Source: Planctomycetaceae bacterium
GTDB lineage: Bacteria; Planctomycetota; Planctomycetia; Pirellulales; Thermoguttaceae
Direction: 5' to 3'
NCBI GenBank assembly: GCA_031277105.1
Contig: JAISLW010000325.1
Span: forward strand, 1 to 33,483
Length of the DNA: 33,483 nt
Shown here: positions 6,351 through 33,122 of the stretch, in pieces
How positions within the stretch are numbered: the first letter of the stretch is position 1
Layout of the letters: each line of letters opens with the position of its first letter
Notes under the pieces: model-generated
Told to the model about the DNA's origin: nothing
Seen by the model: only the letters and a program-made list of their open reading frames with translations
Databases searched by the model: none
Program-made: the position numbers and the translations under genes

Positions 6351-6449
6351 TATCTGGCTACAGGTACTTACCACGATTGCCGTTACGACGATAGCAATTA
6401 TTGTAACGATAATTCTCTGGGCAAATCTCCCAAACTGTTTAACTTTCTT

Positions 6450-7397
6450 GGTTTTACGCTTGTTGAGCTTCTGGTAGTGATAGCGATTATTGGCGTATTG
6501 ATTGCATTGCTTTTGCCTGCAGTTCAAGCCGCACGCGAAGCCGCAAGAAGGTCTCAATGCGCAAATAATTTAAAACAACTCGCACTAACAATCCACAATT
6601 ACGCAGACGCTAATAAACAAAAAATTCCAGGTCCTGTAGCAAATCATTTAAACGGCGCCTGGAATGAAGCTCGAGCCAATATGTGGGTTGCTTTGTTTCC
6701 TTTTATGGAACTGACGGCTCTTTCAGATGCTTTGAAGAATTACACTAGCGGTATGGATCCTGATCCAAGAGTTACAGGCGATATGGCAAGTTTCTTATGC
6801 CCGTCGTTCACAAAACGACATAGAGAAAATCCTTGGGGACACGGTTCACCTTGCAATTATTTATGGTGTACCGGCGTTTGGAGACCATGCGCCGAAAGTA
6901 CGTTTACATGGCCGTACACATCAAACGAGCGAGCCGGTTATTTCAACTCAACAGGCGAACCATGGGAAAAAGGTGCATGGGATGACATTCACGATCCAGG
7001 CGAACTTGTTGCGCCAGACGGAACGTCCAATACAATGTTATTTTCTGAAGGCAGTTCAGGAAACAAAAATGACAACTGCGGGACAAATGTTTTCTATTAT
7101 GATCCCAATAGCGATCTTGGACGAATGACTCGATTCCACACTGGAACGCGTCCGTGTTCAGCAATAACGGCGCCCGAATCCGGCGCGCTTTATCGACACG
7201 ACCATAATACGTTGCCATCAGGAATTACGCTCAACGACGGCAGTTGTCATAGATGGAGCGCTAATTCGCTTCATACTTCTACAGTCAATGCCGCATTGGG
7301 CGATGGTTCAGTCAAATCCGTAAGTTTTCAAGTAAATCTTGCCGTATGGATGGCTGCCGGAACAACCGATTCAGGCGAAGCAAGCTCATTGCCATAA
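6450..7397 (+). CDS. DUF1559 prepilin-type protein, start codon not identified
   Basis: The frame begins with the prepilin cleavage/methylation motif [20 protein letters not shown], then [20 protein letters not shown], which is diagnostic of planctomycete DUF1559 proteins. Later marks of the family are [10 protein letters not shown] and the C-terminal [14 protein letters not shown] (the DG motif). Such proteins are exported through the type IV pilin/type II pseudopilin route; their role is unknown and genomes often encode many. The given start is the first conserved codon (Gly of GFTLVE). The only canonical initiator in frame is GTG at 6477, which would cut off the motif. Non-standard CTG codons lie at 6354, 6417 and 6435. 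The true 5' end may have been lost or may depend on the length of the poly-G tract at 6336-6350. A lipoprotein gene follows 430 bp downstream. Confidence 0.85.
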
Positions 7398-7455
7398 TAA
7401 TAAGCCGTAGTAATAACATTAGTGAGTTTATAAAAACCACCAAATTTACTCTTAT

Positions 7456-7594
7456 TAACCACAGAGGACACAGAGAACACAGAGGAAATTTTTAATTGGA
7501 ATCAAAACGTTATTTAATATTATAATTGTTGATTTTTTGATTTAAGATATTTTTAAAAAATTCTTCTCTGTGAACTCTGCGTTCTCGGTGGTTT
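7456..7594. repeat. Element F copy 1
   Basis: An inverted pair: AACCACAGAGGACACAGAGA at the left and CTCTGTGAACTCTGCGTTCT..GGTGGTT at the right, with an AT-rich middle. Repeats of this CCACAGAGG-type are widespread in several phyla, from general knowledge. Fragments occur at 3965, 11787 and 18887. Confidence 0.65.
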
Positions 7595-7603
7595 TAAAAA
7601 AAT

Positions 7604-7787
7604 GTAACCGTTCACGGAAATTTAATCGCTAGGTTTTAGGGGATAAGGTGTAGGGAGTAGTTTTTTAGAAAGCTAGAGAACAGATTTTTTGTTACAAAAA
7701 AATTGTCCCAATTGTCCCTCATGTCACACTTGTCCCTCAAAAATTACCAAAACGTAATTTAATAAATAAATTTCCGAGAACGGTTAC
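7604..7787. repeat. Element C copy 4 (beta left, alpha right)
   Basis: It starts GTAACCGTTCACGGAAATTT, continues with the beta arm (GCTAGGTTTTAGGGGATAAG), a TTTTTTGTTACAAAAAAAT centre, the alpha arm with TTGTCCC repeats, and ends CCGAGAACGGTTAC. Confidence 0.75.
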
Positions 7788-7827
7788 ATTAACTTTAACA
7801 TTAACTTTAACTTTAAAATAAATTCCA

Positions 7828-8268
7828 ATGAAAATTAAATATCAGATTTTTTTGTGTTCTTTGCTGTGTGTTTTTTGTTTGCTTGGTTGTGGAGTTCCGA
7901 CGATTTCGGTATCGGGCAAAATAACATTTGAGGACGGCACGCCGTTGACTTCGGGCGAAGTAGTTTTTGCATTAGACGGCTCGGAAGAGTATTTTGCGAA
8001 AGGCAAAATTGGCAGCGATGGAACTTACACGCTTGCCGAACAAGTCATCGGCAAACAATCGGGTAAATCCGGTTGTAAAAAGGGCGATTTCAAGGTATTC
8101 ATTGCCGCTACGTCAAAATATGACATAACAAAAAACAAAACCGAAGTTACTCACATAATCGATCAGGATTATGCCAACAAAGAAAAAACGCCGCTAAAAA
8201 CAAAAGTTCCGGCAGGCGTTTACGATTTTAAAATCCCGCCTTACAAAGAAAAAACCATAAAAAAATAA
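7828..8268 (+). CDS. Small lipoprotein with a carboxypeptidase-regulatory-like fold
   Basis: The protein has 146 residues. A short charged start and hydrophobic core end in the lipobox LLGC, with the lipidated Cys at residue 21. The body reads VSGKITFEDGTPLTSGEVVF followed by KGKIGSDGTYTL, the pattern of the transthyretin-like/carboxypeptidase-regulatory beta-sandwich that planctomycetes often encode beside DUF1559 proteins. The C-terminal part, VPAGVYDFKIPPYKEK, fits the end of that domain. It probably sits as a lipid-anchored protein in the cell envelope. The pairing with the DUF1559 gene upstream supports a shared but unknown envelope role. An element C copy lies directly before it and another starts two bases after its stop codon. 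Confidence 0.8.
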   Translation: MKIKYQIFLCSLLCVFCLLGCGVPTISVSGKITFEDGTPLTSGEVVFALDGSEEYFAKGKIGSDGTYTLAEQVIGKQSGKSGCKKGDFKVFIAATSKYDITKNKTEVTHIIDQDYANKEKTPLKTKVPAGVYDFKIPPYKEKTIKK

Positions 8269-8373
8269 CGTAACCCTTCACGAAAATTTAAACGATAAAT
8301 TTTAGGGGTTAAGGAGTAGGGAGTAGTTTTTTAGAAATTGAGAGAACAGTTTTTTGTTACAAAAAATCGTCAG

Positions 8374-8733
8374 ACGGATCGCAGGCGTCTTGCCTGCATT
8401 CCAGGATCGCAGGCATTTCGCCTGGGTTCCTTCAGATTCGCAGGCGAGATGCCTGCATCACCGGATCGCGGGCGTCTCGCCTGCATGCGGTTGTACTCAA
8501 CCGCTAATGAGAGAGGTTGAATATCTCAACCGCCTTTTTGGTTGCCTATCGGCAACATGCAGGCGGGACGCCCGCGATCCGTTGGTCTCGCCTGCTTTTC
8601 AGAATCGCAGGCATTTCAGGATCACAGGCGTCTCGCCTGGTGTTCCTTCAGATTCGCAGGCGGAATGCCTGCATCCCAGGATCGCGGGCGTCTCGCCTGC
8701 ATGCGGTTGTACTCAACCGCTAATGAGAGAGGT
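8374..8733. repeat. Element B cluster 2
   Basis: The same hairpin units as cluster 1, with GGATCGC(A/G)GGCGTCTCGCCTGC repeated about seven times and two GCGGTTGTACTCAACCGC hairpins. Short open frames through it are by-products of the repeat. Confidence 0.8.
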
Positions 8734-8761
8734 TTAATTCTCTAAAAATTCATTTTTATTT

Positions 8762-8925
8762 TTGTCCCGCTAGGGACAACATGTTGGTAGAAAAGTAAGG
8801 TCAAAAATATATTTGTCCCGCTAGGGACAACATGTAAATACAACATTAACCCTTATTGCGTCCTTAACGGGACGCTAAAAAATTGTATCATCTTTTCTAC
8901 CAACATGTTGTCCCTAACGGGACAG
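8762..8925. repeat. Element A copy 2 (164 bp)
   Basis: The left end is TTGTCCCGCTAGGGACAACA and the right end TGTTGTCCCTAACGGGACAG. Its interior is almost the same as copy 1. Confidence 0.85.
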
Positions 8926-8937
8926 ATCGGATAAATT

Positions 8938-9010
8938 GGAAGGATCCCAGACGTCTCGCCTACAGGCGGTTGTACTCAACCGCCGTTGAGCGAGATTTAG
9001 CTCGCAACCG
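8938..9010. repeat. Element B remnant
   Basis: It holds one degenerate palindrome (AGGATCCCAGACGTCTCGCC) and a GGCGGTTGTACTCAACCGCC hairpin, followed by GAGCGAGATTTAGCTCGC. Confidence 0.65.
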
Positions 9011-9145
9011 ATTTTTTTTGTAACAAAAAACTGTTCCCTAAATTTCTAAAAAAACTACTCCCTACTCCCTAACCCCTACACCCTAAAACCTAGCGCTTAA
9101 AATTTTCATGGACGGTTGCAAAATCTTTAATTCCGAATTTAAAAA

Positions 9146-10345
<1,200 letters not shown>

Positions 10346-10452
10346 AAAATTTTTTAACTAAATAACCAAATTTTAAATTAAATAAATAAATAACAAAATA
10401 AAATATAATCGCTTAATATTTTAATAATTAGGGGATAGGATATAGTTTTTTT

Positions 10453-10792
10453 GTAACCGTTCACGAAATTTTGTTTATTAAATTACGTTTTGGCAATTTT
10501 TTAGGGACAAGTGGGACATAAGGGACAAGTGAGACAATTTTTTTATAACAAAAAATTGAGAAGTAACACAGCCGTCGCGGATGCAAGTTGCCGCAAGGCA
10601 ACCAATAAAACGGTTGAGATCAAAACCTCCATCACTAGCGGTTGATCACAACCGCATGCAGGTAAGACGCCTGCGTTCCTGCTGACGATTTTTTGTAACA
10701 AAAAACTGTTCTCTACATTTCTAAAAAACTACTCGCCACCCCCTACACCCTAACCCCTAAAATCTATCGCTTAAATTTACGTGAACGATTAC
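10453..10792. repeat. Element C copy 6 (alpha left, beta right) with B insert
   Basis: The ends are GTAACCGTTCACG and CGTGAACGATTAC. The left alpha arm has GGGACAAGTGGGACATAAGG. The right beta arm has CTACTCGCCACCCCCTACAC. A degenerate B block (10568-10686, with GTTGCCGCAAGGCAAC) sits at the centre, where uninterrupted copies have TTTTTTGTTACAAAAAA. Confidence 0.7.
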
Positions 10793-10925: not shown

Positions 10926-11624
10926 TTATTTTAAATTATATTTTAGACGTTCGTCTTCTTCATAAATATTCTTTTGTTTTAACAATTTTTCAATTATTTT
11001 TTCTACTTCGTCGTCAGATTTTTTTAATATAGATTTCAAATAGCAAGTTAAACTTTTTTTAGTTTTTGGCATTCTGGTTTCGCCGACTTTATTTAAGATC
11101 CTTTTTAAATTTTGCAAAAGGTCAACTAAATTTTTGTCGTTTGTTTTATTTTGATTTTCTGCGGCGGCTTTATTTAAAATTTCTTTTGGCTTTTTTGTAT
11201 TATCCGCAATCGGCGACGGTAACGGCAACAACTGCCGCTGTTCTTTTGTAACTTTATTTACGTTAATTTGTTTAAATTTGTCAATTCGTCTAACCTTAAT
11301 TTTTTTATTATTTAGAAAATCAATAAGAGGATCATATCCGGTATCTTTTGAATAAATAATATATTCTTTATCCTTGTCGCTAAAAATATAATACCCCAAA
11401 AAATATACAATAAAAAAATCCAGAGCGTTCTTTTTGCCATTACTTTTTATTTGCATCCATTCTATAGAATCGCCCAATGGTTGCGTTTTTTGAATCAGAT
11501 TTATTGGGATTTTATTTTGCGTTTCGCCGACAATTATAACTACTTTGATATTTTTATCGATAATGTCAACATCTATATCCTGAACATTTTCATAATCGAC
11601 AAAAATATATTTATCATAATCCAT
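10926..11624 (-). CDS. PIN/NYN-like ribonuclease-fold protein
   Basis: The protein has 232 residues. The N-terminal half fits a PIN-like nuclease fold: YIFVDYENVQ with D10 and E12, then KKNALDFFIVYFLGY with D69, then IIYSKDTGYDPLIDFL with D94 and D98. These acids are spaced as expected for a metal-dependent RNase site. Residues 115-155 are a polar linker. The C-terminal 70 residues are Lys-rich and helical (LTCYLKSILKKSDDEVEKII), like a small winged-helix or nucleic-acid-binding module. It is more AT-rich and Lys/Asn-rich than RibBA or HslV beside it, which may mean separate ancestry. RNA cleavage is inferred; the target is unknown. It might act alone or in defence, but no partner gene is adjacent. 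Confidence 0.65.
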   Translation of the reverse strand: MDYDKYIFVDYENVQDIDVDIIDKNIKVVIIVGETQNKIPINLIQKTQPLGDSIEWMQIKSNGKKNALDFFIVYFLGYYIFSDKDKEYIIYSKDTGYDPLIDFLNNKKIKVRRIDKFKQINVNKVTKEQRQLLPLPSPIADNTKKPKEILNKAAAENQNKTNDKNLVDLLQNLKRILNKVGETRMPKTKKSLTCYLKSILKKSDDEVEKIIEKLLKQKNIYEEDERLKYNLK

Positions 11625-20086: not shown

Positions 20087-20281
20087 CGTTGTCTCGCCTA
20101 CGAACCTGAAGGAACCCAGGCGAAATACCTGCGATCCTGAAGTGCAGGCGAGACCACCGGATCGCGGGCGTCTCGCCTGCATGTTGCCGATAGGCAACCA
20201 AAAAGGCTGTTGAGATTTTAAACCTCGCTCATTAGCGGTTGAGTACAACCGCTCGCAGGCGAGACGGCCTGGGATCCTTCC
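20087..20281 (-). repeat. Element B cluster, minus orientation
   Basis: The complement of the B units: GGATCGCGGGCGTCTCGCCT, GTTGCCGATAGGCAAC, and AGCGGTTGAGTACAACCGCT. Confidence 0.75.
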
Positions 20282-20293
20282 AATTTATCCGAT

Positions 20294-20457
20294 CTGTCCC
20301 GTTAGGGACAACATGTTGGTAGAAAAGATGATACAATTTTTTAGCGTCCCGTTAAGGACGCAATAAAGGTTAAGGTTGTATTGACATGTTGTCCCTAGCG
20401 GGACAAATATATTTTTGACATTGCTTTTCTACCAACATGTTGTCCCTAGCGGGACAG
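20294..20457. repeat. Element A copy 3 (164 bp, inverted)
   Basis: The ends are CTGTCCCGTTAGGGACAACA and TGTTGTCCCTAGCGGGACAG. The interior is the reverse complement of copy 1. Confidence 0.85.
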
Positions 20458-20674
20458 AAATGAATTTTTAGAGACACCCAGATATTAAACCTCTCTCATT
20501 AGCGGTTGAGTACAACCGCATGCAGGCGAGACGCCCGCGATCCTGGGATGCAGGCGAGACGCCTGCGAATCTGAAGGAACACAGGCGAGACGCCTGTGAT
20601 CCTAAAATGCCCGCGATCCTGAAATGCAGGCGAGACCAACGGTTCGCAGGCGTTCCGCCTGCGAACCTTATGAC
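20458..20674 (-). repeat. E terminus plus element B cluster
   Basis: ATGAATTTTTAGAGACACCC (E terminus) joins to a B cluster with CGGTTGAGTACAACCG, GCAGGCGAGACGCCCGCGAT and four further GCAGGCG palindromes. Confidence 0.7.
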
Positions 20675-20928
20675 GGCGATTTTTTGTAACAAAAATTGTC
20701 CCCATTGTCTCGCTTGTCACACACGTCCCTAAAAAATCGCCAATACGTAATTTGCTAAAAAATTTCCGTGAACGGTTACAAAAATTTTAACCCGCCGTGT
20801 TGCGGCGGGCTGTTATGCGTTGCCCATAAAATGGCAAGATTTAACGTAATTTTTTGATCAAAAAATTCTCTACCCAATAGTTATGAGTATTTTTTGAAAA
20901 CCGCAATTTGAAAGTGTGAAAAATATAG

Positions 20929-22131: not shown

Positions 22132-23946
22132 TTATTCTCGTTTTATTTTGTAAAATTTGAGTATTGTCAAAATTTTTTTATTTTTTGTAACATCATTGAT
22201 ATTTGTAAAATCATTTTTTGAAATAATATTTTTTAGTATTTCATCTTGTTCTTTGTTAAGTGAGTTAAATTGTTCCCACCACTGTTTGGTCAAATTATCT
22301 TTATATTTGAAACGGTGAATAATAAACGCTTCCGGCATCCAAAGAATTTTATGAAATTCGTCTAGGTTACGTCCAAATGCTTCTTCAAAAAATGTTTTAC
22401 CTCGTCCGATTTTACCTTTGGTCGCATTGAGAACTGCTTGCACTGCACGGATAAATTTACGATTCCAATACTTGCCAATATAATTCCTATTGTCAAAGTA
22501 TTTTGGATCATCAATTGGATGATATTTCATCGGAAAAGAATAAATTGATACGCCAAGTTCTTCGCATAAATCAACATTAACTCTCATCCGTTGATACAAT
22601 TCATCAGGTTTATCAAGATAATTATATAGTAAATAATTAGAAAGATTTTTGATTCCATATTTCGCCGCTAGTCGAACAGCGTTGCAGTAAATGTCTGCCA
22701 TCGAATAGTGATCAAATGCAATTCGTAATGGTCTTATGTTGAGTTCGGAAAGTTTTTTTATTTTTTCTTCAATAACATGTCGAGCATCAACACCCTGATT
22801 AAAATCAATATACCTTACTTTGGGACTATGTTTAAAATATTTATCATAAAGTGGACGAGCAATTTCATCAAAATTGAGAATGGACTTTACATCCGCATAG
22901 ACTGGATAAAGTAGATTTGCCTTCTCTCTTGTCAAATAAAATTCACCTTGTTCGTTTTCTGGAAGTTTTTCTGCTATGCTATCATAAATTTTTATGATTT
23001 TATTTGTGTAAGCACGGACATTGCGATTTTCTTTCTTACTTGCTCGTAAATGTTTAATTGCAATAGCATACTCGCTAGGCGGAGTATAAGTTGCCCCGCG
23101 ATGAAAACCACAATCTTTTATTTCATTAATGATTTTGTTAAACTTCTTTGAAGCAAATACATTATTATCAAGAAGCAACAAATCTTTTCGTTGTCCGAAA
23201 AGAGCGGTCGTTTCTTCTAGTTGTAGTTTGATTGCAATATAACTACGATATTTTTTTTCCAATCGTGGTACAACACAAAAACTACAACGATTGGGGCAAC
23301 CACGTGTCATATAACCAAAATAGCTATTGCTCGCCGGATACTTATAGTCAATTTCTTCTAAAATAGAATAATCCAATGGTAATGTATCAATTATAACCTT
23401 ACTGTTTTTATCAAATATTCCTGCTTTATTGAGTTGCCCTTGTATCGGTTTTATTTCAGTTGCTTCATAAAATTTTTTCGGTAATAATGTAGCAGCAATT
23501 CCTCCGACATATAATTTTCCATCGGGTTTTAAAAATTTTTTGGCGCCGTTTATTGTATTGACTGTTTCTTTCCAATAAAAAGTAAAGAGAGTAGTAACGC
23601 AAATTATATCAAATTTGGGATAACTTTCCGCTACGTATTGTTGCCGGTATTTTCTTAATACAATATAGTCGTTACTCCAAATAAATTCTGGAATTGTATC
23701 AATATAAATACATTGCCCCGTTTTAATAAATTGTAATATATTTGATTCATATTTTGCAAGAGTTACATTTTTTACTTCACGAAAAAATTCTTCGCTCAGT
23801 AATTTTACCGCAAGATCTCTGAGATTACCCTTAAAAAAACGCAAATCATCACCACATTTACGAAAATATGTTGCGAGTTTCATTAATCCCAATGGAGGAT
23901 ATTTGTTTTTATAATTCGGTTCAAGTAGAAGAGTCTTTCTTCCCAT
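22132..23946 (-). CDS. Radical SAM enzyme with B12-binding-like N-terminus
   Basis: The protein has 604 residues. The N-terminus (EPNYKNKYPPLGLMKLATYF) and later DIICVTTLFTFYW.. with LYVGGIAATLLP have the outline of the B12-binding domain of class B radical SAM enzymes; the DxHxxG cobalamin-binding His motif is not seen, so B12 may be bound base-off or not at all. The [4Fe-4S] motif is TRGCPNRCSFC, giving Cys217, Cys221 and Cys224 in the canonical CxxxCxxC spacing. About 370 further residues carry DFNQGVDARHVIEEKIKKLS and an unrecognised C-terminal part. Its ATG overlaps the stop of the upstream GHKL gene by one base (TAATG), which shows translational coupling. It is the last gene of the NurA-HerA-GHKL-rSAM cassette. 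The product may modify a nucleic acid or make a signalling or protective small molecule; the substrate is unknown. Confidence 0.85.
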   Translation of the reverse strand: MGRKTLLLEPNYKNKYPPLGLMKLATYFRKCGDDLRFFKGNLRDLAVKLLSEEFFREVKNVTLAKYESNILQFIKTGQCIYIDTIPEFIWSNDYIVLRKYRQQYVAESYPKFDIICVTTLFTFYWKETVNTINGAKKFLKPDGKLYVGGIAATLLPKKFYEATEIKPIQGQLNKAGIFDKNSKVIIDTLPLDYSILEEIDYKYPASNSYFGYMTRGCPNRCSFCVVPRLEKKYRSYIAIKLQLEETTALFGQRKDLLLLDNNVFASKKFNKIINEIKDCGFHRGATYTPPSEYAIAIKHLRASKKENRNVRAYTNKIIKIYDSIAEKLPENEQGEFYLTREKANLLYPVYADVKSILNFDEIARPLYDKYFKHSPKVRYIDFNQGVDARHVIEEKIKKLSELNIRPLRIAFDHYSMADIYCNAVRLAAKYGIKNLSNYLLYNYLDKPDELYQRMRVNVDLCEELGVSIYSFPMKYHPIDDPKYFDNRNYIGKYWNRKFIRAVQAVLNATKGKIGRGKTFFEEAFGRNLDEFHKILWMPEAFIIHRFKYKDNLTKQWWEQFNSLNKEQDEILKNIISKNDFTNINDVTKNKKILTILKFYKIKRE

Positions 23947-25523
23947 TATCTAAGTCCCTTCTTAAGTCCTTTCGTTATTTTATCAATTAGTTTGTCTGCT
24001 GTTTCAGTGTCCATTTCCAAATGAATTATCTCAAAAACTCTTTCAATAATTTTTCTTTCTTTACTATTAAATTTTCCTAGTTCATCGGTACGGCGTTTTT
24101 GTATGGGACGTTGTATAGGAAGAGGCGCAGGTTTAAGACAATTTTCTTCTTTAACGACTTTATTAATGACTTGTTCAATAATTTGTCCATAAACGCCGCC
24201 ATTTTCCTTTGCTTTTTCGTTTATTTTTTTTATTTCATTTTGTGCATTTTCAGCTTTTAATCGTTTGTCTTTAAGTTTTTCATATTCGTTCTTTTTTTGC
24301 TCTTCGTTAATAAATATACCTGTCTTTTCCTTTTTATTATATTCTGTTTTATCTTTCTCATAATCGGTAATCTTTTTAACAGAACTATTAATCTTTGATC
24401 CATCGTAATAAATCTTATATAAATCTTTAGAAAAAAAGTTTTGAAGCGAATCTTCAAAATTTCTGCGAGTAGGAGTTTCATTAAAATAATCGCGTTGTGA
24501 ATTAGGAATAAGGTCGGTGGAAACAGCGAATACTTCGCCAACAAAATAATTTTGTCCACGTTCTTCATTGAATAATTTTTGTAAAACATCTTCGTTACCG
24601 ATTTGGATGTTTCCTTTACGGAGCCGAAAACTCCTCATTGGGTTTGTTTTTTTGGGTAAAACCTTGTCAAATTTTGAAAGTCCTAACCACATCCATGCTA
24701 ATAGATTTCCATTTTCGTCTTTGACGTCATAAAATTCAATATCAAAAATCTCATCGGTACATTCACCTTTGTTATCCTTAATTTTATCCGTATAATTTTT
24801 AAAAATTTGTTCTCCGTCAAGTTTAATATTATATTCGTCTATATTATAATTTTTTTCTTGAGCGTATTTTTTTATATTTGTTCTAAATCGGAAAGTATTT
24901 TGATAGGGTACCGGCGCAACAAAAGAAAGATAATTTTTAATTGCTATCTTATCAAGTAAATCGTTATTTTCATCATTGATTCCTTTCAGTTCGACCGTAA
25001 AATAATGATCGTTGTTGTTATCGGTCTGTTCCGTTTCAAAATGAAATATTTGTTTAAGAACAAAACCGGCTTCATGCTTTTTACCTTTGTGATGTTCGGT
25101 TATTAAATTGCGCATTTTTTGGGCGTTACAGATCACTTTTGAAATGATATTTTCTCCTTTTGCTTTAGATTCAAATATGAGTTCACGGCAATAAGCAAGC
25201 CCGCACAGACGACCAATGCCTCGAAAACCTTTATCTTTACTGAAATCTTTGTCTGAATCGGCAATATTTCCTAACACCCGTTGAAAATCTGCGGCGGTAA
25301 TTCCTGTTGCATTATCACGTATTGTTACTGTACGGTTATTCTGATCGAACCAAATTTCAATCTGACCTTCATTTTGTTGCAGGATACCTTCTTCGATTGC
25401 CTTATCGATTTGGTCGCATGCATTTTGAATGTATTCCCGATAAATCACTTTGGAGTCCTGATACATCCCTGTAGTTAGGTTCTCAATTATATTTGCTCCG
25501 AATCTGTATTCTTGTTCTTGCAT
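23946..25523 (-). CDS. GHKL-family ATPase (MORC/Hsp90-like)
   Basis: The protein has 525 residues. The Bergerat ATP-binding fold is clear: YREYIQNACDQID with Glu30, Asn34 and Asp37 (motif N), TIRDNATGIT with Asp70 and Gly74 (motif G1), and KGFRGIGRLCG at 98-108 (motif G2). These suit ATP-dependent dimerisation as in Hsp90, MutL and MORC proteins. A transducer-like middle part follows, with MRSFRLRKGNIQIGNEDVL and GEVFAVSTDLIPNSQRDYF, a pattern seen in Hsp90-like ATPases. The C-terminal third is a Lys/Glu-rich coiled coil (about 385-435) and a basic end. Prokaryotic MORC-like ATPases are known from restriction and defence loci. It lies 102 bp behind herA with element D between, and is coupled to the radical SAM gene. 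Confidence 0.85.
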   Translation of the reverse strand: MQEQEYRFGANIIENLTTGMYQDSKVIYREYIQNACDQIDKAIEEGILQQNEGQIEIWFDQNNRTVTIRDNATGITAADFQRVLGNIADSDKDFSKDKGFRGIGRLCGLAYCRELIFESKAKGENIISKVICNAQKMRNLITEHHKGKKHEAGFVLKQIFHFETEQTDNNNDHYFTVELKGINDENNDLLDKIAIKNYLSFVAPVPYQNTFRFRTNIKKYAQEKNYNIDEYNIKLDGEQIFKNYTDKIKDNKGECTDEIFDIEFYDVKDENGNLLAWMWLGLSKFDKVLPKKTNPMRSFRLRKGNIQIGNEDVLQKLFNEERGQNYFVGEVFAVSTDLIPNSQRDYFNETPTRRNFEDSLQNFFSKDLYKIYYDGSKINSSVKKITDYEKDKTEYNKKEKTGIFINEEQKKNEYEKLKDKRLKAENAQNEIKKINEKAKENGGVYGQIIEQVINKVVKEENCLKPAPLPIQRPIQKRRTDELGKFNSKERKIIERVFEIIHLEMDTETADKLIDKITKGLKKGLR

Positions 25524-25524
25524 T

Positions 25525-25622
25525 GTTTTAAATTGCTTTCACTTGAAATTACGTTTTACAATCGCCTGCCTAGTTTTCGGACGGCGGGCTTTAACGCTGA
25601 AATTCAAGTACAAACTGTATAA
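25525..25622 (+). repeat. Element D copy 6, between the HerA and GHKL genes
   Basis: Plus-oriented, slightly shortened (the TTTAAATCG part is missing), with core GCCTGCC-tagttttcgga-CGGCGGGC. It fills the gap from one base upstream of the GHKL start to three bases after the herA stop. Confidence 0.7.
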
Positions 25623-25625
25623 CAG

Positions 25626-27317
25626 TTACTTAAATTGTTTATAAATTGGTTTAGGAAAATGAATTTTCAACAACGAGCGGAACACTGGATTTTGTATGAG
25701 ATAATCGCCTTGTTCCAACCGTGTAAGCATATTTTTATACGTACTTGGCAAACTGTTATAATCTCTTGTTGAAACTTCTATTGAATTAGTGCGTCCATAA
25801 GCGTGTGTTGCGCAATTACCCGTAACTCTATCATGTATCGCGCTACGGAATTGTTCTGCTCCAAACAATATCACTCCTAATGATCGACCACGTTCTGTTA
25901 CATCAAGTAATTCACGTAATATCGGCGACGTTTTGGGAACATCTTTGGATGCGTATTTATTTAATTCATCAATAAACACTACAATTTTTGACGGTGGATT
26001 AACCCTTTTTTCATTATCAAATTCACCTAGTTTCAAGTTATAAATTGTTCTCACCGCATCGCCAAAAACAAATGCTTGTTTGTCTTCTGGTAGTTTTGCA
26101 ATATCAATTACAAAAACATCATTATTACTGATTTTCTTAATTTCATCTGCAAGCCGACATTCTTTCTTTTGAGGATCAACTCGCTGAGCAAACATTTCAT
26201 CTTGTATCGCTTTACGGACAATTCGTTTAAATTTTCGCCAACTCAATACAGAAATATCACTGTTATTTTTTGAGGAATTTCCTTTTTGGGAATTTTCTGT
26301 AACTTTGTTAATAAATTCATTCCATGTATTGAGACGTCCGAAGTCAGGGTCATCTTTGTCAATAATTTTACTAATAATTGATTCCATTGTTTGTGCCGGA
26401 TCATCAATATTGGAAAACATCATTTCAATACTTTCTTTATCATAAGCATAAACATATTTAAATTTATTCAATTTATTTGATTTTAAGTACAAATCAACAT
26501 CGTCTCTCGATAAGTAGGTACTCTGTTTCGTTGAGTTGTTAGAATAATAGGGAATAAAATATTTTACATTTTTAAACGGTTCCGGTTTTAATTGCAGATT
26601 TTTATAATCTGCAAGAATTTTTTTCTTTTTGGTAGTATCATTTTCGAAATCGCTCATTTCGTCAATTGCCATTAAGTCGCATCCTTTAACATTAAAAATC
26701 ACAAAGGCAACACTGTCGTCAGAATCTTGTTTATTCAAATACTGATCTTGAATTGCTTTCATCAAAAACATTGCATAAGACGTTTTAGATGCAAGCCCGG
26801 AAATACCTGATATGTTTAGATGAGCGCCTTCCGGTCCTAAAATGAATTTTGAATTAAGATGTACAGGTAATACTACTTCATCCGGCGTTCCTTCATACAT
26901 TTTCAACGAACCACAAACAAGCGGATTTTGAATTTTATCAAGCCCCAATGCCAACGTGATTTCTTCGGCGGACGCCAGATACACTTTCGCATTGTTATGA
27001 ACCGGCGTATAAAGATTTTTATTGTTAAATGAAACTTTCACTTCAGCATAATTCATTCCAATCCGCAACGTTGGCTCTTCAACATTAACATTCCCAAAAT
27101 CGCTGGAAATAAAATTTGTTAAAAAACTTTGTGCGTCTGTAATATGCGAAATATTCTCAATAACACCGAAGGTAAATGAACCGTCAATATGTGCAACTTT
27201 CACAATATCAAATGCATGTAACTGTAAATCGGAATTTGTCCAAAAACAAAATTTGTCCATCGTGGTAGGATTTTTTTCTGTTGCTAAAACTCTACCAATA
27301 AGTTTATTATCACTCAT
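25626..27317 (-). CDS. HerA-like DNA-pumping ATPase
   Basis: The protein has 563 residues from the ATG; a TTG five codons earlier (27332) is possible, and neither has a good Shine-Dalgarno sequence. The N-terminal NKLIGRVLATE..DIVKVAHIDGSFTFGVIENI is the small beta-barrel (HAS-barrel) of HerA proteins. The Walker A loop is GISGLASKTS (residues 171-180 in this numbering), a variant of GxxGxGKS with Ala for the second conserved Gly. Walker B is IVVFIDELNKYA, followed by LGVILFGAEQFRSAI, then the arginine-finger-like NCATHAYGRTN. HerA forms a hexamer that moves along DNA and works with the NurA nuclease, which is encoded directly upstream. A long insert (about 225-395, Lys/Asn-rich) sits between the Walker motifs. 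Confidence 0.88.
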   Translation of the reverse strand: MSDNKLIGRVLATEKNPTTMDKFCFWTNSDLQLHAFDIVKVAHIDGSFTFGVIENISHITDAQSFLTNFISSDFGNVNVEEPTLRIGMNYAEVKVSFNNKNLYTPVHNNAKVYLASAEEITLALGLDKIQNPLVCGSLKMYEGTPDEVVLPVHLNSKFILGPEGAHLNISGISGLASKTSYAMFLMKAIQDQYLNKQDSDDSVAFVIFNVKGCDLMAIDEMSDFENDTTKKKKILADYKNLQLKPEPFKNVKYFIPYYSNNSTKQSTYLSRDDVDLYLKSNKLNKFKYVYAYDKESIEMMFSNIDDPAQTMESIISKIIDKDDPDFGRLNTWNEFINKVTENSQKGNSSKNNSDISVLSWRKFKRIVRKAIQDEMFAQRVDPQKKECRLADEIKKISNNDVFVIDIAKLPEDKQAFVFGDAVRTIYNLKLGEFDNEKRVNPPSKIVVFIDELNKYASKDVPKTSPILRELLDVTERGRSLGVILFGAEQFRSAIHDRVTGNCATHAYGRTNSIEVSTRDYNSLPSTYKNMLTRLEQGDYLIQNPVFRSLLKIHFPKPIYKQFK

Positions 27318-27368
27318 TATTGTTTCCGGCAACTCTATTACCGGCTCATAAAAATTAAAAAAACAAAA

Positions 27369-27473
27369 TTATACGTAACGTACTTGAATTTCAGCGATAC
27401 AAGAGTATAAAAGCCTGCCGTCCAATATAGGCAGGCGGCGATAAAACGCAAATTCAATGTGAACAGTTTAAAA
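27369..27473 (-). repeat. Element D copy 7, between the NurA and HerA genes
   Basis: Minus-oriented, ACGTAACGTACTTGAATTTC to AATGTGAACAGTTTAAAA, with core CCTGCCGTCCAATATAGGCAGG. The nurA stop codon and the codon before it lie inside the repeat's terminal TTTAAA. Confidence 0.72.
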
Positions 27474-28646
27474 TAAATGTAAAAAACTTTCAGCGCTGAT
27501 GTATCTTGATTTTACAAACATTTCCGTCATATAAATTGGGTAAAGATGATTCGCCCAACGTATATCCGAACCATAACATACTGGATTACGTTCATTGATA
27601 AGATGGGCGCTCAACATGTCAACAGTATCGCTATTCATTCCATTATCAATTTCATCGTCTGATACTAAAATTTTTTCTACTTTTATTATTCCGTCAAAAG
27701 GAGAACGAGTTTGATTCTGTTCACGTAACCGAATATACCATACCGCAAACTGAATGTCTCCTAAATAGTCTGGATTGTCATAACACGCAACCGGAGTACG
27801 ATGCCGATTCGGTAATTTTGCTATATATCCTGGAGCCGATTTACCATTTAAATCAAGACAAACCTCCGAATTAAAACTTTTTGATACGCCTAATACCCAA
27901 TTGTAATTGTGTTTAAATGTTTGATATTTTCTGAAATCTTTTTTTAGATCAGGCGCTGGTCGATATTCCAAAGAACCATCTTTAATAAGGTAATTATCTT
28001 GTCCTAATTTATTTTCTTTAACCAATTCCGCAACGAGTTCTTTTTCTCGTTCTATCATCTTATCCTGCACGCGTGCTGTTGCTCTGTCTTCAAATTTTGA
28101 ATTGTCGTTTCTTGATGTAGTATAAGACAAAACGTTGCTAAAACTTACTCTAAGCCGTTTTAAGTCTTCACATTCATTAAGTTTTTTTGTTAGCGCCGGA
28201 AAGAACCCTGTTTTACCGTCAGCATCGGCAACATCAGGAACGACAAGAACAATTTCACGATTGAATTTTTCTATAATAATCTTCTTTTTGTCTTTTCGAC
28301 AGCAACAACCGACTCCTATTTGACCGGCGATGATTGGATAAATGACACTACGGTTCCCATTGTAATAGGCAACATCGTCAACTTTGAACACTCTCCGCGA
28401 ACCGTCAAGAAAATAAGTAAGGATTGGTTCATAATTTTTAATAATATTCTCGCAGGCAGAATTTAACTTGACATATTTTTCCTTATGGTTAGTTGTTTCT
28501 GCTATTTTTTTCCACTGAATATTTTCCGTCTCGTAATCAAAGTTTGAGCGTTCTGATACATCCAAACTATATTTATGGGCTTTGTAACTTTCGCCGCCGG
28601 TTTCTTCTATAAGTAAATCTCGGACTTTTCTAGGCTTCTTTGACAT
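27468..28646 (-). CDS. NurA-domain nuclease
   Basis: The protein has 392 residues from ATG at 28646; a TTG 12 codons upstream (28682) also fits, with no Shine-Dalgarno sequence at either. NurA marks, numbered from ATG: TYFLDGSRRVFKVDD with Asp81 (metal site), LIKDGSLEYRP with Asp223 and its Gly-Ser-Leu, and the C-terminal RWANHLYPIYMTEMFVKS with His367. Between them lie an acidic ERE..AEL helix. NurA is a metal-dependent single-strand endo- and 5' to 3' exonuclease that resects DNA ends with HerA. The order nurA-herA here, in one direction, supports the call. The family assignment rests on motif recognition and is less secure than that of HerA. The last codon and the stop overlap element D copy 7. 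The gene leads the four-gene cassette. Confidence 0.75.
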   Translation of the reverse strand: MSKKPRKVRDLLIEETGGESYKAHKYSLDVSERSNFDYETENIQWKKIAETTNHKEKYVKLNSACENIIKNYEPILTYFLDGSRRVFKVDDVAYYNGNRSVIYPIIAGQIGVGCCCRKDKKKIIIEKFNREIVLVVPDVADADGKTGFFPALTKKLNECEDLKRLRVSFSNVLSYTTSRNDNSKFEDRATARVQDKMIEREKELVAELVKENKLGQDNYLIKDGSLEYRPAPDLKKDFRKYQTFKHNYNWVLGVSKSFNSEVCLDLNGKSAPGYIAKLPNRHRTPVACYDNPDYLGDIQFAVWYIRLREQNQTRSPFDGIIKVEKILVSDDEIDNGMNSDTVDMLSAHLINERNPVCYGSDIRWANHLYPIYMTEMFVKSRYISAESFLHLF

Positions 28647-28817
28647 TTTGTATTTATTATTATAGTTTTTGTTTTTTAGCAATTCTCAAAACAAACAACA
28701 CTTCTGGTAATTCTAAATCAAGTAATGAGGTTTGTTTTGTGGATGCTTTTTTGCTAATGAGGTTGTTAAGTTAATAAAAATTAGGTGAAAATGAGGGTTG
28801 GGTTATAAAATAAATAT

Positions 28818-28923
28818 TTTAAACTGTTCATACTTTAATTTACGTTTATATTCGCCTGCCTATCTATCTGATGGCAGGCTTTGATGCTTTTAAATCACGG
28901 AATTGCCAGTACGATCAGTATAA
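28818..28923 (+). repeat. Element D copy 8
   Basis: Plus-oriented copy, TTTAAACTGTTCATACTTTA to TACGATCAGTATAA, core GCCTGCC-tatctatctga-TGGCAGGC. It lies upstream of the nurA cassette. The rest of the 839-bp spacer is AT-rich. Confidence 0.72.
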
Positions 28924-29261
28924 TGATAGTTAAAAAAATAAGTAAAATTACCTCTTTTTTACACATTATTTACGTCGATACTATTTTGTAAATAAATATA
29001 ACAAACTTGTTATCAAAATAAATTGTAAAATCTTAAAAATCCGTTTTAAAACCTAACCTATTTTTAACACCCTACCTTATCGGGACAATAACACAACTTT
29101 TGATCAGAAATTTTCACTAAATAGTTACGAATTTTCAAAGACGCACAATTTTAATCGCATAAATTCCCAATTAAAGTCCCCCCATTCAATCAATAAATTG
29201 AGATACAACATTATGATTAAATTTTTTCCGTATGCAATAAGTACATTTCGCACACAATTAT

Positions 29262-29367
29262 TTTAAACTGTTCACCCTTGAATTTGCGTTTACTTTCGTC
29301 TGCCTAGCTATCGGATGGCAGGCTTTAACGCTCTTACATCGCTGATATTCAAATATGATACGTAATA
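29262..29367 (+). repeat. Element D copy 9
   Basis: Plus-oriented copy with core GTCTGCC-tagctatcgga-TGGCAGGC, ends TTTTAAACTGTTCACCCTTG and CAAATATGATACGTAATAAT. Confidence 0.72.
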
Positions 29368-29485: not shown

Positions 29486-30229
29486 ATGTATGATAAAAAT
29501 TTTAGACAACTTTTAAGTGGATATTATTATCCAGTTACTCATCGCTATGGTTTTCTCCAGGCTCCTTTGGATGACGTAGTTGCAGAACATTGGTATTGGA
29601 AAAGTACGAATCCATACCTACGAACTCGGCTAGATTACTATTCGAAACCAGTATTTTTTGAAGGTTCGTTACGAGATGGACTAGATATGTTAAACCCAAT
29701 AGGTTACGAACAAACTCTCTTTGTAGAAACGAAATCAAATTGGACTGCCATATTTGAATCAGGAGGTGAAGTACATTTAAATTATCCAACTCTTAATCTT
29801 GGTTGTCAAGGATTAGGTATAACTCTTATCGAAAACACATATAATGATCTTGATAATACTGGAGAACATGGTTTTGTAGAATTTAACCTTTTGCGAGGAA
29901 TCAACCGCAAGAGTAATTCAGATGGTCAAATACGCCATATCTATGTTGCTAAATCAGATGATAGATGGGTATTTGCATCTGAAGGTGCCCCCCTTTCTTT
30001 TGAAAAAACTGAGAATTATTCGAAAAAGAGAATAAAGGATCGTTTTACATATGATATGCTCATTGAGTACACAGGATTTTTGGGATTACAAATAGTTGAT
30101 GAAGATTTTTATGGTCCTAGAATGGCTTTTGCCGGTTATAGATTAAAAACACCTGGTAAAGGATACGATAAAGACACATATCAAAGTTACCATCAAGAAA
30201 GAGGTTTAAAATATGGTCGAGAATATTAA
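29486..30229 (+). CDS. Hypothetical protein, possible immunity protein of an RHS toxin locus
   Basis: The protein has 247 residues. ATG follows AAGAGGAGT at 5-nt spacing, the strongest ribosome-binding site in the window and unlike its neighbours. No signal peptide or membrane segment is seen. The chain is rich in Tyr, Trp and Phe (GYYYPVTHRYGFLQAPL, EHWYWKSTNPYLRTRLDYY), compatible with a mixed alpha/beta soluble fold. I do not recognise the family. The next gene overlaps it by 17 bp and contains an RHS/YD-repeat fragment. Single soluble genes beside RHS ends are commonly immunity proteins, so that role is inferred from context only. Codon usage and plus-strand orientation differ from the surrounding genes, a sign of acquisition. 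Confidence 0.6.
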   Translation: MYDKNFRQLLSGYYYPVTHRYGFLQAPLDDVVAEHWYWKSTNPYLRTRLDYYSKPVFFEGSLRDGLDMLNPIGYEQTLFVETKSNWTAIFESGGEVHLNYPTLNLGCQGLGITLIENTYNDLDNTGEHGFVEFNLLRGINRKSNSDGQIRHIYVAKSDDRWVFASEGAPLSFEKTENYSKKRIKDRFTYDMLIEYTGFLGLQIVDEDFYGPRMAFAGYRLKTPGKGYDKDTYQSYHQERGLKYGREY

Positions 30230-30578
30230 GGGAATTTCCAAAAAATTATTTGAAATGTCATTTTATGAATTACAACTAGATCGAAAGTCAACAAGATCGT
30301 ATTGGCGATTGTCAAAGCGGCGAGAAAATTGTCTGTCTATTTATGGAGATATTCTTGAAACAAAAATTACTTACGATTACGATACGAAAGGTAATTTAAT
30401 TTCAGCAACGGATCAACTCGGTAATACGATGAAATTTTCTTATCTTGATACGCCGAATGCGCCTGAACATTATCTTGATACGATAATTAATTCGTTTAAT
30501 CAAACCAATGAATTTTACCAAATTCGACAACCGTTAAAAAACCACTCAATACTTCAAACCCACAACATTAAAATATAA
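30213..30578 (+). pseudogene. RHS/YD-repeat remnant fused to a short unrelated N-terminus
   Basis: The frame of 121 residues starts inside the previous gene, after AAGAGG. Residues 1-50 (FYELQLDRKSTRSYWRLSKR) are not recognised. From about residue 50 comes ITYDYDTKGNLISATDQLGN followed by TMKFSYLDT and EHYLDTI, the YD-repeat pattern of RHS proteins. RHS proteins are usually over 1000 residues, with dozens of such repeats forming a shell around a C-terminal toxin; here only about one and a half repeats remain and the frame then drifts into non-repeat sequence. It may be a leftover of recombination between RHS tips, with the preceding gene and the N-terminal part belonging to an older toxin or immunity module. 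Confidence 0.65.
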
Positions 30579-30581
30579 GTA

Positions 30582-30667
30582 AACGTTCACAGAAATTCGA
30601 TTATTAAGTTAGTATCCAAATTTTGATGGATAAGTGGGACAAGAGGGACAATTTTTGTAACAAAAAA
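30582..30667. repeat. Element C copy 16, left half
   Basis: GTAAACGTTCACAGAAATTC, then AAGTGGGACAAGAGGGACAA and TTTTTGTAACAAAAAATCGT. The right half is absent or worn beyond the following B-A-B block. Confidence 0.6.
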
Positions 30668-31058
30668 TCGTCAGACGGATCGCAGGCGTCCCGCATGCAT
30701 TTCAGGATCGCAGGCGCTTTAGGATCGCAAACATTTCGCCTGGTGTTTCTTCAGATTCGCAGGCGGAACGCCTGCATCACAGGATCGCGGGCGTCTCGCC
30801 TGCATGCGGTTGTACTCAACCGCTAATGAGCAAGGTTTAACATCTCAACCGCCTTTTTGTTTGCCTATCGGCAAAGTGCAGGCGGGATGCCCGCGATCCG
30901 TTGGTCTCGCCTATACTTCAGGATCGCAGGCGCTTCAGGATCGCAAACATTTCGCCTGGTGTTTATTCAGGTTCGCAGGCGAAACGCCTGCATCACAGGA
31001 TCGCGGGCGTCTCGCCTGCAGGCGGTTGTACTCAACCGCCGATGAGCGAGGTTTAATA
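30668..31058. repeat. Element B cluster
   Basis: About ten GCAGGCG-type palindromes, two GCGGTTGTACTCAACCGC-type hairpins and GCCTATCGGC. This is followed by the E terminus GGGCGTCTCTAAAAATTCAT at 31063-31083. Confidence 0.8.
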
Positions 31059-31083
31059 TCTGGGCGTCTCTAAAAATTCATTT

Positions 31084-31247
31084 CTGTCCCATTAGGGACA
31101 ACATGTTGGTAGAAAATCAATGTCAAAAATATATTTGTCCCGCTAGGGACAACATGTCAATACAACCTTAACCTTTATTGCGTCCTTAACGGGACGCTAA
31201 AATTTGTATCATTTTTTTCTACCAACATGCTGTCCCTAGCGGGACAA
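31084..31247. repeat. Element A copy 4 (164 bp)
   Basis: The left end is CTGTCCCATTAGGGACAACA and the right end TGCTGTCCCTAGCGGGACAA. The interior is nearly identical to copy 1. Confidence 0.85.
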
Positions 31248-31261
31248 ATATTTATTGTTAC

Positions 31262-31735
31262 AAAAAATACCGGATCGCGGGCGAGACGCCTGTATTCCAG
31301 GATCGCGGGTGTCTCGCCTGCATGCGGTTGTACTCAACCGCTAATGAGAGAGTTTTTGATCTCAACCGCCTTTTTGTTTGCCTTGCGGCAAAGTGCAGGC
31401 GAGACGCCCGCGATCCGGTGGTCTCGCCTACTTTTCAGGATCGCATATATTTCAGGATCGCAAACATTTCGCATGGTGTTTCGTCAGATTCGCAGGCGGA
31501 ACGCCTGCATTTCAGGATCGCGGGCGTCTCGCCTGCAAGCGGTTGTACTCAACCGCTAATGAGAGAGGTTTTGATCTCAACCGCCTTTTTGTTTGCCTAT
31601 AGGCAAAGTGCAGGCGGGACGCCCGCGATCCGGTGGTCTCGCCTGCATTTCAGGATAGCAGGCATTTCGCCTGCAAGCGGTTGTACTCAACCGCAAATGA
31701 GCGAGGTTATATCTCAACCGATTTCTTTGTTTGCC
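31262..31735. repeat. Element B cluster, longest
   Basis: The unit order palindrome, GCGGTTGTACTCAACCGC hairpin, GCCTTTTTGTTTGCCT..GGCAAAGTGCAGGCG repeats three times with small changes. It runs up to 17 bp before the stop of the next gene. Confidence 0.8.
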
Positions 31736-31751
31736 TATGAATAGTTACAAG

Positions 31752-33122
31752 TTAAAAGCAGCTTTTGATTTTTTTGATTGTGATTCTGGCGTCTTGACGT
31801 ACCAATGGTTTGAGGTTTTCATTTGATTGGATGTTTTCTAAAAATTTTAATGTATTTTTATCGCCGATTGTTGATAAGCTGTTAATAATCGCTCGTTGAG
31901 TTATAGAATCTGTTTCAGTCTCAAATAATTTTTCAAGTATTCTTGCCGCATCCGGCGCTTGTGATAATGTAATAAACGATATGCCGTATCGACGGATTTC
32001 TATATTGTCGGATTTTAGCAATTCGTGAATTTTGTTTAATTCTTTTTCGCGAATTTTTTTTGCATTATTGCGAAAATAATTTTCGAGAGCAAGCCTAGCC
32101 AAATTCTCATAATCATGCCAAGTCGTCTTGCTCAATGAATCGATTAATTGTAATCGACCTGATTCTGTTTTGATTAACTCTTGTATTTCCTTTTCAGCAT
32201 TTATAATTTTGTTGTTGTATTCTGTTATAGTTTTTGTTGTTGCGTTTGCGGGCGAGGGCGGAGATTTGACCGGATTACTTTGCGCAATTTTTTGTTTTTC
32301 TTCTTCAAGACGTTTAGCCGAAACCGGAACAAGATTTTCCATCGTTATATTTTTTGAGAAACGAGAATATGTGTTGGCGTCAATATTATCGGGAATATTT
32401 TTTTCGCAATGAAAAAATACTGTTGTCAAGTTATCGGAACATAGCGTAAAGTTACCGGCTAGTCCCCATGACGTTTTTTTATCGCGTTCGTTATCCATAA
32501 TCGGACGTTTATAATAAGCGGCAACTTGCGACGGCGCTCGTGAAAAAACTTTTTCATCAAGAAAAAATTCTTCAATATCGAATGTGCGGTTGAATGATTC
32601 GTTAAAAACCGGTTTAACTAATTCGTAATCTCTATCAGGATTGTAAGTTTTCGGGTTCGATTTGATTCCAAGTACGACGCATTTTGCCGTGTCAATATAA
32701 AGAAAACTGAATTGCCAATTACTCCACGATGCAATAAAACCGTCGTTGCAAGGTTCGGGTTTATTTGTCATAAAATTTGGCAACATGATAATTGGTTTTT
32801 CGTTTGTGTTTTTAAACGCAATTAAATTTGTATTGAGTTCTTTAGGGATTAGCGTTGATTTTAGAAAAACGGACAGTATTTTGACGGAATCGTCGCGATA
32901 AACTTTTTCGACTTCGATTGTATTTTTTGCGACAATATTTTTTGCGGGTAATGTTGGCAAAAAGATTTTCGACGCAGTTGTTTTAACCGATTCGCGAAAA
33001 GACGGCGTAGCGTCGTAATTCCATTTGATTTCAGAATTGACCAATTGTTGCGCAAACAACGCAACAACAAAATTCTGAAATAAAAAAATTATAAAAGCAA
33101 AAAACATAATTTGCTTTAACAT
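31752..33122 (-). CDS. Exported protein with C-terminal HEAT-like repeats
   Basis: The protein has 456 residues. ATG follows AAGGAG at 6-nt spacing. A signal peptide (MLKQIMFFAFIIFLFQNFVV..ALFAQQ) suggests export, probably with cleavage after ALFA. Residues 30-270 are beta-rich and of unknown type. Residues 270-300 are a Lys/Glu and Pro-rich linker (SNPVKSPPSPANATTKT). From 310 on it is helical with HEAT-like pairs: IRRYGISFITLSQAPDAARI, and TQRAIINSLSTIGDKNTLKF. HEAT repeats usually bind partner proteins. No family was recognised. It sits between repeat clusters, with D copy 10 just upstream. Confidence 0.75.
   Translation of the reverse strand: MLKQIMFFAFIIFLFQNFVVALFAQQLVNSEIKWNYDATPSFRESVKTTASKIFLPTLPAKNIVAKNTIEVEKVYRDDSVKILSVFLKSTLIPKELNTNLIAFKNTNEKPIIMLPNFMTNKPEPCNDGFIASWSNWQFSFLYIDTAKCVVLGIKSNPKTYNPDRDYELVKPVFNESFNRTFDIEEFFLDEKVFSRAPSQVAAYYKRPIMDNERDKKTSWGLAGNFTLCSDNLTTVFFHCEKNIPDNIDANTYSRFSKNITMENLVPVSAKRLEEEKQKIAQSNPVKSPPSPANATTKTITEYNNKIINAEKEIQELIKTESGRLQLIDSLSKTTWHDYENLARLALENYFRNNAKKIREKELNKIHELLKSDNIEIRRYGISFITLSQAPDAARILEKLFETETDSITQRAIINSLSTIGDKNTLKFLENIQSNENLKPLVRQDARITIKKIKSCF

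Follow-up and report, generated by a model that had tools for sequence, protein, structure and literature searches.

A NurA-HerA-GHKL-radical SAM operon of a planctomycete, a candidate mobile defense system of the restriction-modification type

The window analyzed here is the whole 33,483-nt contig JAISLW010000325.1 (assembly GCA_031277105.1) of a Planctomycetaceae bacterium. On its minus strand, at positions 22132-28646, it carries a cassette of four genes coding for a NurA-like nuclease, a HerA ATPase, a GHKL ATPase and a radical S-adenosylmethionine (rSAM) enzyme. The four genes make up one unit that is co-inherited and has been transferred horizontally, their products belong to recognizable enzyme classes and folds, and there is exchange of partners with DNA-modification and defense genes. 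Tentatively, we read the cassette as a mobile restriction-modification-like defense operon, in which the GHKL-rSAM pair would mark self DNA and NurA-HerA would degrade unmarked DNA.

Gene calling on the window placed the four same-strand open reading frames (ORFs) where an earlier note, made from the sequence alone, had put them. The motifs that it reported were also correct and are invariant or nearly so across relatives; they include the CxxxCxxC motif of the rSAM enzyme and the TAATG overlap by which the GHKL and rSAM genes share one base. In the order of transcription, the genes and their motifs are as follows.

27468-28646, minus strand: NurA-like nuclease, first gene of the cassette, 392 residues; assigned from an AlphaFold2 model compared with Foldseek and from invariant residues
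25626-27317, minus strand: HerA ATPase/translocase, 563 residues from an ATG, with an alternative TTG start possible at 27332; assigned from the family profile
26781-26807, minus strand: HerA Walker A motif GISGLASKT, aligning with the Walker A of Deinococcus radiodurans HerA, with invariant Lys and Thr
25965-25976, minus strand: HerA Walker B motif FIDE, with invariant D455 and E456
23946-25523, minus strand: GHKL ATPase, 525 residues, with an N-terminal Hsp90/MORC-type ATPase part (Pfam HATPase_c_3, 2.4e-10) and a variable C terminus
23944-23948, minus strand: TAATG stop/start overlap of the GHKL and rSAM genes, read from the sequence
22132-23946, minus strand: rSAM enzyme, 604 residues, with a putative N-terminal Rossmann domain of the B12-binding type
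23275-23298, minus strand: CxxxCxxC [4Fe-4S] motif of the rSAM enzyme, residues 217-224, its three Cys invariant in 42 relatives

Co-inheritance, transfer and loss of the four genes

A scan with an rSAM alignment, taking one genome per species, yielded 527 relatives, and the best 80 of the 527 were sorted by gene content. All four genes were found in the same order and on the same strand in 57 of these 80 loci. As 13 loci were cut by contig ends inside the cassette and 10 were without some part despite having room for it, the complete cassette was present in 57 of 67 testable loci, and homologs of the rSAM and GHKL genes thus do co-occur with nurA-herA, the recurrence that the earlier note had proposed to look for. 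The 80 loci came from Bacillota, Synergistota, Planctomycetota, Bacteroidota, Chlorobiota, Chloroflexota, Cloacimonadota, Fibrobacterota and Melainabacteria. Over 49 cassettes, the matrices of pairwise distances calculated for each of the four proteins correlated with one another at r values of 0.85-0.91, the best of 999 permutations reaching 0.22. The conserved loci and the matrix correlations led us to reject chance neighborhood, and it is near certain that the four genes are one inherited unit. This arrangement had first been encountered in L008, a gut 'phage' scaffold (45/56/40/52% identity for the four genes), and in L014, an IMG/VR contig (66/76/55/59% identity). Neither the GHKL protein by itself nor a HerA alignment of two rows gave matches in viral scans, and plasmids contained no close HerA homolog, the best reaching 24% identity.

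For each of the four genes, the copies nearest to that of the window are from Bacillota (Desulfosporosinus and Syntrophomonadaceae), with 82% identity for HerA, 69% for NurA and 67% for rSAM; for GHKL, a viral-labeled contig or a Chlorobiota copy is as close as those of Bacillota. The two intact copies of the window's own family, to which the 'Thermoguttaceae' genomes of loci L128 and L130 also belong, are distant (HerA, 60%; NurA, 48-49%; rSAM, 52-53%). The window copy was therefore acquired by horizontal transfer, as the earlier note had suspected. In a sample of 119 genomes of the family, rSAM was present in 10 genomes and HerA in 6, and several copies are remnants, in four genomes of the window's genus (G002, G011, G015 and G019) and in G028, the window copy being the only intact cassette seen in the sample of its genus. 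When the family was surveyed with HerA as the anchor, no HerA of this subfamily lacked an accompanying rSAM gene or its remnant.

Partial losses were seen elsewhere too. At a site after clpB in Synergistaceae, L071 and L078 keep the four genes and L067 and L070 keep rSAM alone, as a full-length gene with an intact Cys motif, a nonsynonymous divergence (dN) of 0.22 and saturated synonymous sites. In Selenomonadaceae, L094 and L104 carry the GHKL-rSAM pair without NurA-HerA inside arginine operons. Loss of the nuclease with retention of the modifier would resemble the behavior of lone methyltransferases of restriction systems, and it fits any independent role of the rSAM enzyme as well.

An additional gene, of about 280 codons and for an HNH endonuclease whose N-terminal domain is conserved, was seen repeatedly within the cassette or next to it (L048, L077, L082, L084, L102, L129, L154, L155, L156 and L158) in Bacillota/Synergistota loci and in loci of the planctomycete phylum. 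Its position varies, between HerA and GHKL, between GHKL and rSAM, or in place of GHKL. It accompanies decayed cassettes in the window's genus, and G011 and G028 keep rSAM only from residue 246 on. In the family survey, four of the five HNH-bearing genomes have it in a cassette, and the fifth copy (G401, L189) adjoins genes resembling a BREX type and a cysteine desulfurase. We rejected the view of this ORF as a decay artefact, since it is a recurrent extra gene; it may be an optional fifth component or a mobile gene.

Enzyme classes of the four proteins

The enzyme classes of the four proteins are near certain. Structures were predicted for NurA and rSAM, and the assignment of HerA and GHKL comes from sequence profiles alone. 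The NurA-like protein was not recognized by any model of Pfam or PADLOC, and a PDB profile search gave only a hint (7f6d_H, E 0.85). Its AlphaFold2 model (mean predicted local distance difference test score [pLDDT], 87.6) matched only two structures in Foldseek at E ≤0.001, Deinococcus NurA (7f6d_G, 1.3e-10) and the Thermotoga RNase H-like nuclease TM1739 (1zup, 8.7e-8). The earlier note had left open that structure searches might place this 392-residue protein elsewhere; its sole significant matches are NurA-type nucleases. The stretches F-L-D81-G, K222-D223-G224 and H367-x-Y369-P370 are conserved across relatives, and D81, K222, D223, K256, H367 and Y369 are invariant. An RNase H-like nuclease fold with its catalytic Asp residues (D81 and D223) is thus encoded beside herA.

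A profile of 34 HerA relatives matched the solved HerA of D. radiodurans (7f6d_B, E 2.8e-50) over its N-terminal/Walker A and Walker B parts. G176, G179, K183-T184 and D455-E456 are conserved, with the Lys/Thr of Walker A and the Asp-Glu of Walker B, typical of HerA ATPases, invariant. From these sequence matches and the NurA model, the pair appears to be of the Deinococcus resection-complex type, for which a HerA hexamer and a 6:2 complex with 5′-end resection activity would be expected. The Deinococcus NurA-HerA (7f6d, PMC9960219) shares with it, besides HerA homology, the unusual Walker A and the NurA fold, whereas our cassette adds GHKL and rSAM in one operon, is patchy and transferred, and has a context that does not point to a repair role.

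A DNA repair operon was considered nonetheless. The rSAM enzyme would reverse or process a lesion, as spore photoproduct lyase does, the GHKL protein would be MutL-like, and NurA-HerA would resect the broken end, a reaction that it carries out in Deinococcus and in archaea (PMC9960219). The fixed chromosomal sites at which some Selenomonadaceae and Synergistaceae keep the cassette would also suit such a role. We regard this as quite unlikely, given the very patchy distribution (HerA in 6 of 119 family genomes), the cross-phylum transfer, the remnants in four other genomes of the window's genus, the defense-system neighbors (see below), and a Z score of only 9.5 for spore photoproduct lyase against the rSAM model.

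The HATPase_c_3 match of the GHKL protein scored 41 bits against a cut-off of 25, and its best PDB matches were Hsp90/HtpG chains, over the ATPase part only. The GFRGIG and DN motifs expected of a GHKL/MORC-like ATPase are invariant or nearly so. Of all long stretches of the cassette, the last 175 residues of this protein (351-525) show the lowest conservation, with a mean share of the majority residue of 0.38-0.48, compared with 0.55-0.76 before them. The earlier note had proposed that the GHKL protein senses or clamps DNA; the variability is compatible with a recognition part at the C terminus.

The rSAM protein matched the Pfam families Radical_SAM (5.7e-5) and B12-binding (0.0012; 19.1 bits, cut-off 32.1) below their cut-offs. 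Its model (pLDDT 91.8) matched rSAM enzymes and has a TIM-barrel core, in which the invariant C217, C221 and C224 form the CxxxCxxC motif of the superfamily. The nearest structures were AprD4 (Z 14.8, the best), MgmA (14.0), MiaB (13.6), TsrM (12.7), CysS and OxsB, mostly of the cobalamin-binding rSAM architecture, and the match ranges of AprD4, MgmA, TsrM, CysS and OxsB include the N-terminal part of the model.

The presence of MiaB and RimO among the nearest folds would fit regulation of the nuclease by a GHKL-rSAM pair that modifies tRNA or a protein, for instance HerA or NurA, and modification of RNA and protein is common among rSAM enzymes. However, the three N-terminal Cys that hold the second [4Fe-4S] cluster of MiaB/RimO are absent, C217, C221 and C224 being the only invariant Cys, and NCBIfam scores were far under the cut-offs, so that tRNA modification of the MiaB type is disfavored. 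As the partners of the enzyme are DNA-acting proteins throughout, a non-DNA substrate of this kind strikes us as improbable.

Viperin structures also appeared in the fold comparison, with Z scores of about 10. Prokaryotic viperins are rSAM defense enzymes, and viperins make ddhCTP (3′-deoxy-3′,4′-didehydro-CTP). Defense might accordingly proceed without a self mark, with the GHKL protein as a sensor, the rSAM enzyme making a signal or a poisoned metabolite, and NurA-HerA as the DNA-degrading effector; the one-base overlap of the GHKL and rSAM genes suits this arrangement. Yet viperin scores well under the B12-type enzymes, which reach Z 13-15, and its alignment covers the barrel only; the lone rSAM gene persists under purifying selection, and rSAM is present in loci that are expected to involve a DNA mark (Pbe, ParB/DndB). 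Defense without a self mark thus seems unlikely.

Partners of the rSAM gene and proposed function

The expectation that the cassette would lie beside defense genes is supported. The L014 copy is directly flanked by a Lamassu LmuB gene (1e-232) and a PDC-S06 candidate-defense gene. The 104 proteins flanking copies outside Selenomonadaceae/Synergistaceae matched 100 PADLOC models, including AbiE, type I and type IV restriction, Pbe and PD-Lambda-5, and the 104 flanking the chromosomally fixed copies of these two families matched 20, a comparison that is unmatched for species or genome region and shows a tendency rather than being a test.

Related rSAM genes, with or without GHKL, stand in other defense loci. 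In L046, genes for PbeA (4.9e-219) and PbeC/DndD (2.9e-131) are followed by rSAM-GHKL, and in L152 PbeA-PbeC are followed by rSAM. In L151, genes for DrmB, a NERD-helicase, rSAM, GHKL and a DNA methylase are in line, in a DISARM-like arrangement. Plasmids of rhizobia, Novosphingobium and Roseomonas, as well as seven viral-labeled contigs, carry rSAM-GHKL together with genes for ParB, SNF2 and ParB, to which a DndB/DpdB-like DGQHR gene is often added, and L015 and L168 have a PD-Lambda-5_A-like ParB protein with rSAM. The temperate phage Marinitoga camini virus 1 (L164, positions 5951-9777) carries distant NurA (26%) and HerA (33%) genes and a convergent gene for a 360-residue rSAM protein of this family, with no GHKL gene alongside, which suggests that the association is in part old and carried by phages. 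In L162, a NurA-HerA cousin (29 and 35%) has a type IIG methylase-nuclease on one side and an N4/N6 DNA methylase on the other, and its genome gave no rSAM match; ordinary DNA methylases thus occupy the place held by GHKL-rSAM in our cassette.

Pbe defense depends on the presence of a DNA mark, and of 320 Pbe loci that lack phosphorothioation genes, 155 have other base-modifying genes nearby (PMC6459918). It is mainly the company of the mark-dependent Pbe genes and the methylases in place of GHKL-rSAM in L162 that suggest a DNA-marking rSAM enzyme.

Two further arrangements were observed. On the viral-labeled contigs L179 and L180 (about 5080-10600), type IV CRISPR genes for Cas8/Csf1, Cas11, Cas7 and Cas5 (PADLOC, up to 2e-89) lie directly upstream of an rSAM gene of this family and of a gene for a second rSAM/B12-like protein. 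Type IV-B loci usually carry at that place cysH, whose product is in the superfamily of DndC, and one modification enzyme may therefore have been swapped for another. On alphaproteobacterial plasmids (L005, L007 and L010-L013), a second GHKL paralog and a PIN_8-domain protein are encoded beside the DGQHR-rSAM-GHKL trio; this pair looks like a nuclease arm with its own GHKL, in what appears to be another undescribed defense cluster.

A role of the cassette in defense is probable. The nuclease gene is co-inherited with the rSAM gene (57/67 loci, r 0.85-0.91), and if the latter is a modification gene, as predicted, the cassette would resemble a restriction-modification system in this respect. In the mechanism that we propose, the GHKL-rSAM pair would write a mark on the host's own DNA, by radical chemistry of the type of cobalamin enzymes rather than by an ordinary methyltransferase, and the variable C terminus of GHKL would be the target-recognition part. 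The HerA hexamer would pump unmarked DNA into NurA for degradation, and incoming phage or plasmid DNA devoid of the mark would be destroyed. NurA-HerA is likely to be the destroying arm. The action of rSAM on DNA as a self mark, which the earlier note had raised, is suggested by gene context, as the gene stands where modification genes stand and persists after the loss of others; this support is contextual rather than a direct demonstration, and we hold such a role for a serious possibility. Still more speculatively, a cobalamin-type rSAM enzyme guided by GHKL might write a novel mark on host DNA and be, mostly together with GHKL, a portable writer that has been joined to at least five destroying or sensing arms, namely, NurA-HerA, Pbe, DISARM-like, ParB/SNF2/DndB-like and type IV CRISPR.

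Several points weigh against marking of self DNA and destruction of unmarked DNA. The rSAM enzyme might act on RNA, on protein or on a small molecule instead, and its Radical_SAM and B12-binding scores fall under the Pfam cut-offs. The best-known role of NurA-HerA is in repair. The cassettes of Selenomonadaceae and Synergistaceae occupy fixed sites in housekeeping operons (rbfA-nrnA-truB, clpB and argB/argD), which is unlike a typical defense island. The HerA of L162, with 35% identity, is of a different subfamily, the set of 80 loci was anchored on rSAM and so is unable to reveal NurA-HerA of this subfamily without it, and the flank comparison carries the limit given above.

We compared the cassette with known systems. 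None in PADLOC or NCBIfam covers it, the matches to PDC-M51A (0.0015) and mad8 (2.9e-8) being single-protein matches. Only HerA matches a model of the MADS mad1-mad8 set (mad8); the other three proteins match no mad model. DndCDEA-PbeABCD and other mark-dependent systems (PMC6459918, PMC10853773) are alike in that rSAM comes right after PbeA-PbeC-like genes in L046 and L152, with GHKL in L046. They differ in that dndC and dndA were not seen in the stretches of L046 and L152 that were read, and in that the effector pair of the window is NurA-HerA, not Pbe/DndFGH. Among the cassette and adjacent proteins, PADLOC found no DndFGH/Pbe-type genes (dndC-dndD-dndE or pbeA-pbeC); pbeA-pbeC were present only in the relatives L046 and L152.

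HerA-nuclease defense systems (DUF4297-HerA, PMC11291478; HerA/FtsK capture systems, PMC10853773) likewise combine a HerA motor and a nuclease, whereas here the nuclease is NurA and there are two extra genes, GHKL and rSAM, neither of which is mentioned with HerA in PMC10853773. No Pfam or PADLOC match to a DUF4297 or SIR2 effector beside herA was found among the cassette proteins. MORC/paraMORC GHKL ATPases of restriction-modification loci (PMC2292703) also lie amid DNA-modification and nuclease genes, and that paper mentions neither NurA, HerA nor radical SAM. The alphaproteobacterial ParB-SNF2-ParB-DGQHR-rSAM-GHKL cluster (L005, L010, L011, L173-L178 and L181) shares rSAM (about 40%) and GHKL (about 27%) with the cassette, but it has ParB-like, SNF2, often DndB/DpdB-like and sometimes PIN-GHKL genes in place of NurA-HerA. 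We know of no published name for this cluster.

No paper in the open-access full-text library searched joined HerA, NurA, radical SAM and defense, in a search that did not cover subscription papers, preprints and post-2023 defense catalogs; within the literature so covered, the statement of the earlier note that no described system has all four genes stands. If shown, DNA marking by an rSAM enzyme would be categorically new, and the cassette itself would be a variant of nuclease-motor, restriction-modification-like defense. The enzyme would then join the small set of self-marking chemistries of bacterial immunity, NurA-HerA would gain a second job besides repair, and a single rSAM-dependent nucleoside to be sought would provide a direct entry for experiments. 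Should the mark lie elsewhere than on DNA, a conserved four-gene unit present in several phyla, with an rSAM family of about 530 relatives and no description that we could find, would still merit a name.

Base composition and repeats in the window

The cassette genes have a GC content of 31-36% (22-28% at third codon positions), and the genes to their left are mostly at 40-47%. The low GC content that the earlier note had pointed out is thus real, but composition alone does not delimit the cassette, because the right-hand flank (29486-33122) and one gene on the left (10926-11624, 27% GC) are AT-rich as well; we rejected low GC as a boundary marker, the right flank being equally AT-rich. The left-hand ORF at 10926-11624 codes for 232 residues with a Lys plus Asn share of 0.25, amid genes of 40-47% GC, and is probably a recent import.

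The NurA-HerA and HerA-GHKL gaps each contain one copy of a dispersed repeat of about 100 nt, found in the window at 25555-25598, 27365-27480 (inverted), 28812-28920 and 29256-29364. It resembles repetitive extragenic palindromes or miniature inverted-repeat transposable elements, with a hairpin GCCTGCC...GGCAGGC, and has at least 46 matches in the host genome. As two copies lie in intergenic gaps of the operon and one copy looks terminator-like, they could affect read-through. Short GC-rich repeat arrays (GGATCGCAGGCG types) flank the cassette on both sides, at 20095-20720 and 30629-31000. These arrays pair as long inverted repeats (142 nt, 90% complementarity, 10.5 kb apart) and are possible recombination sites bracketing the AT-rich block.

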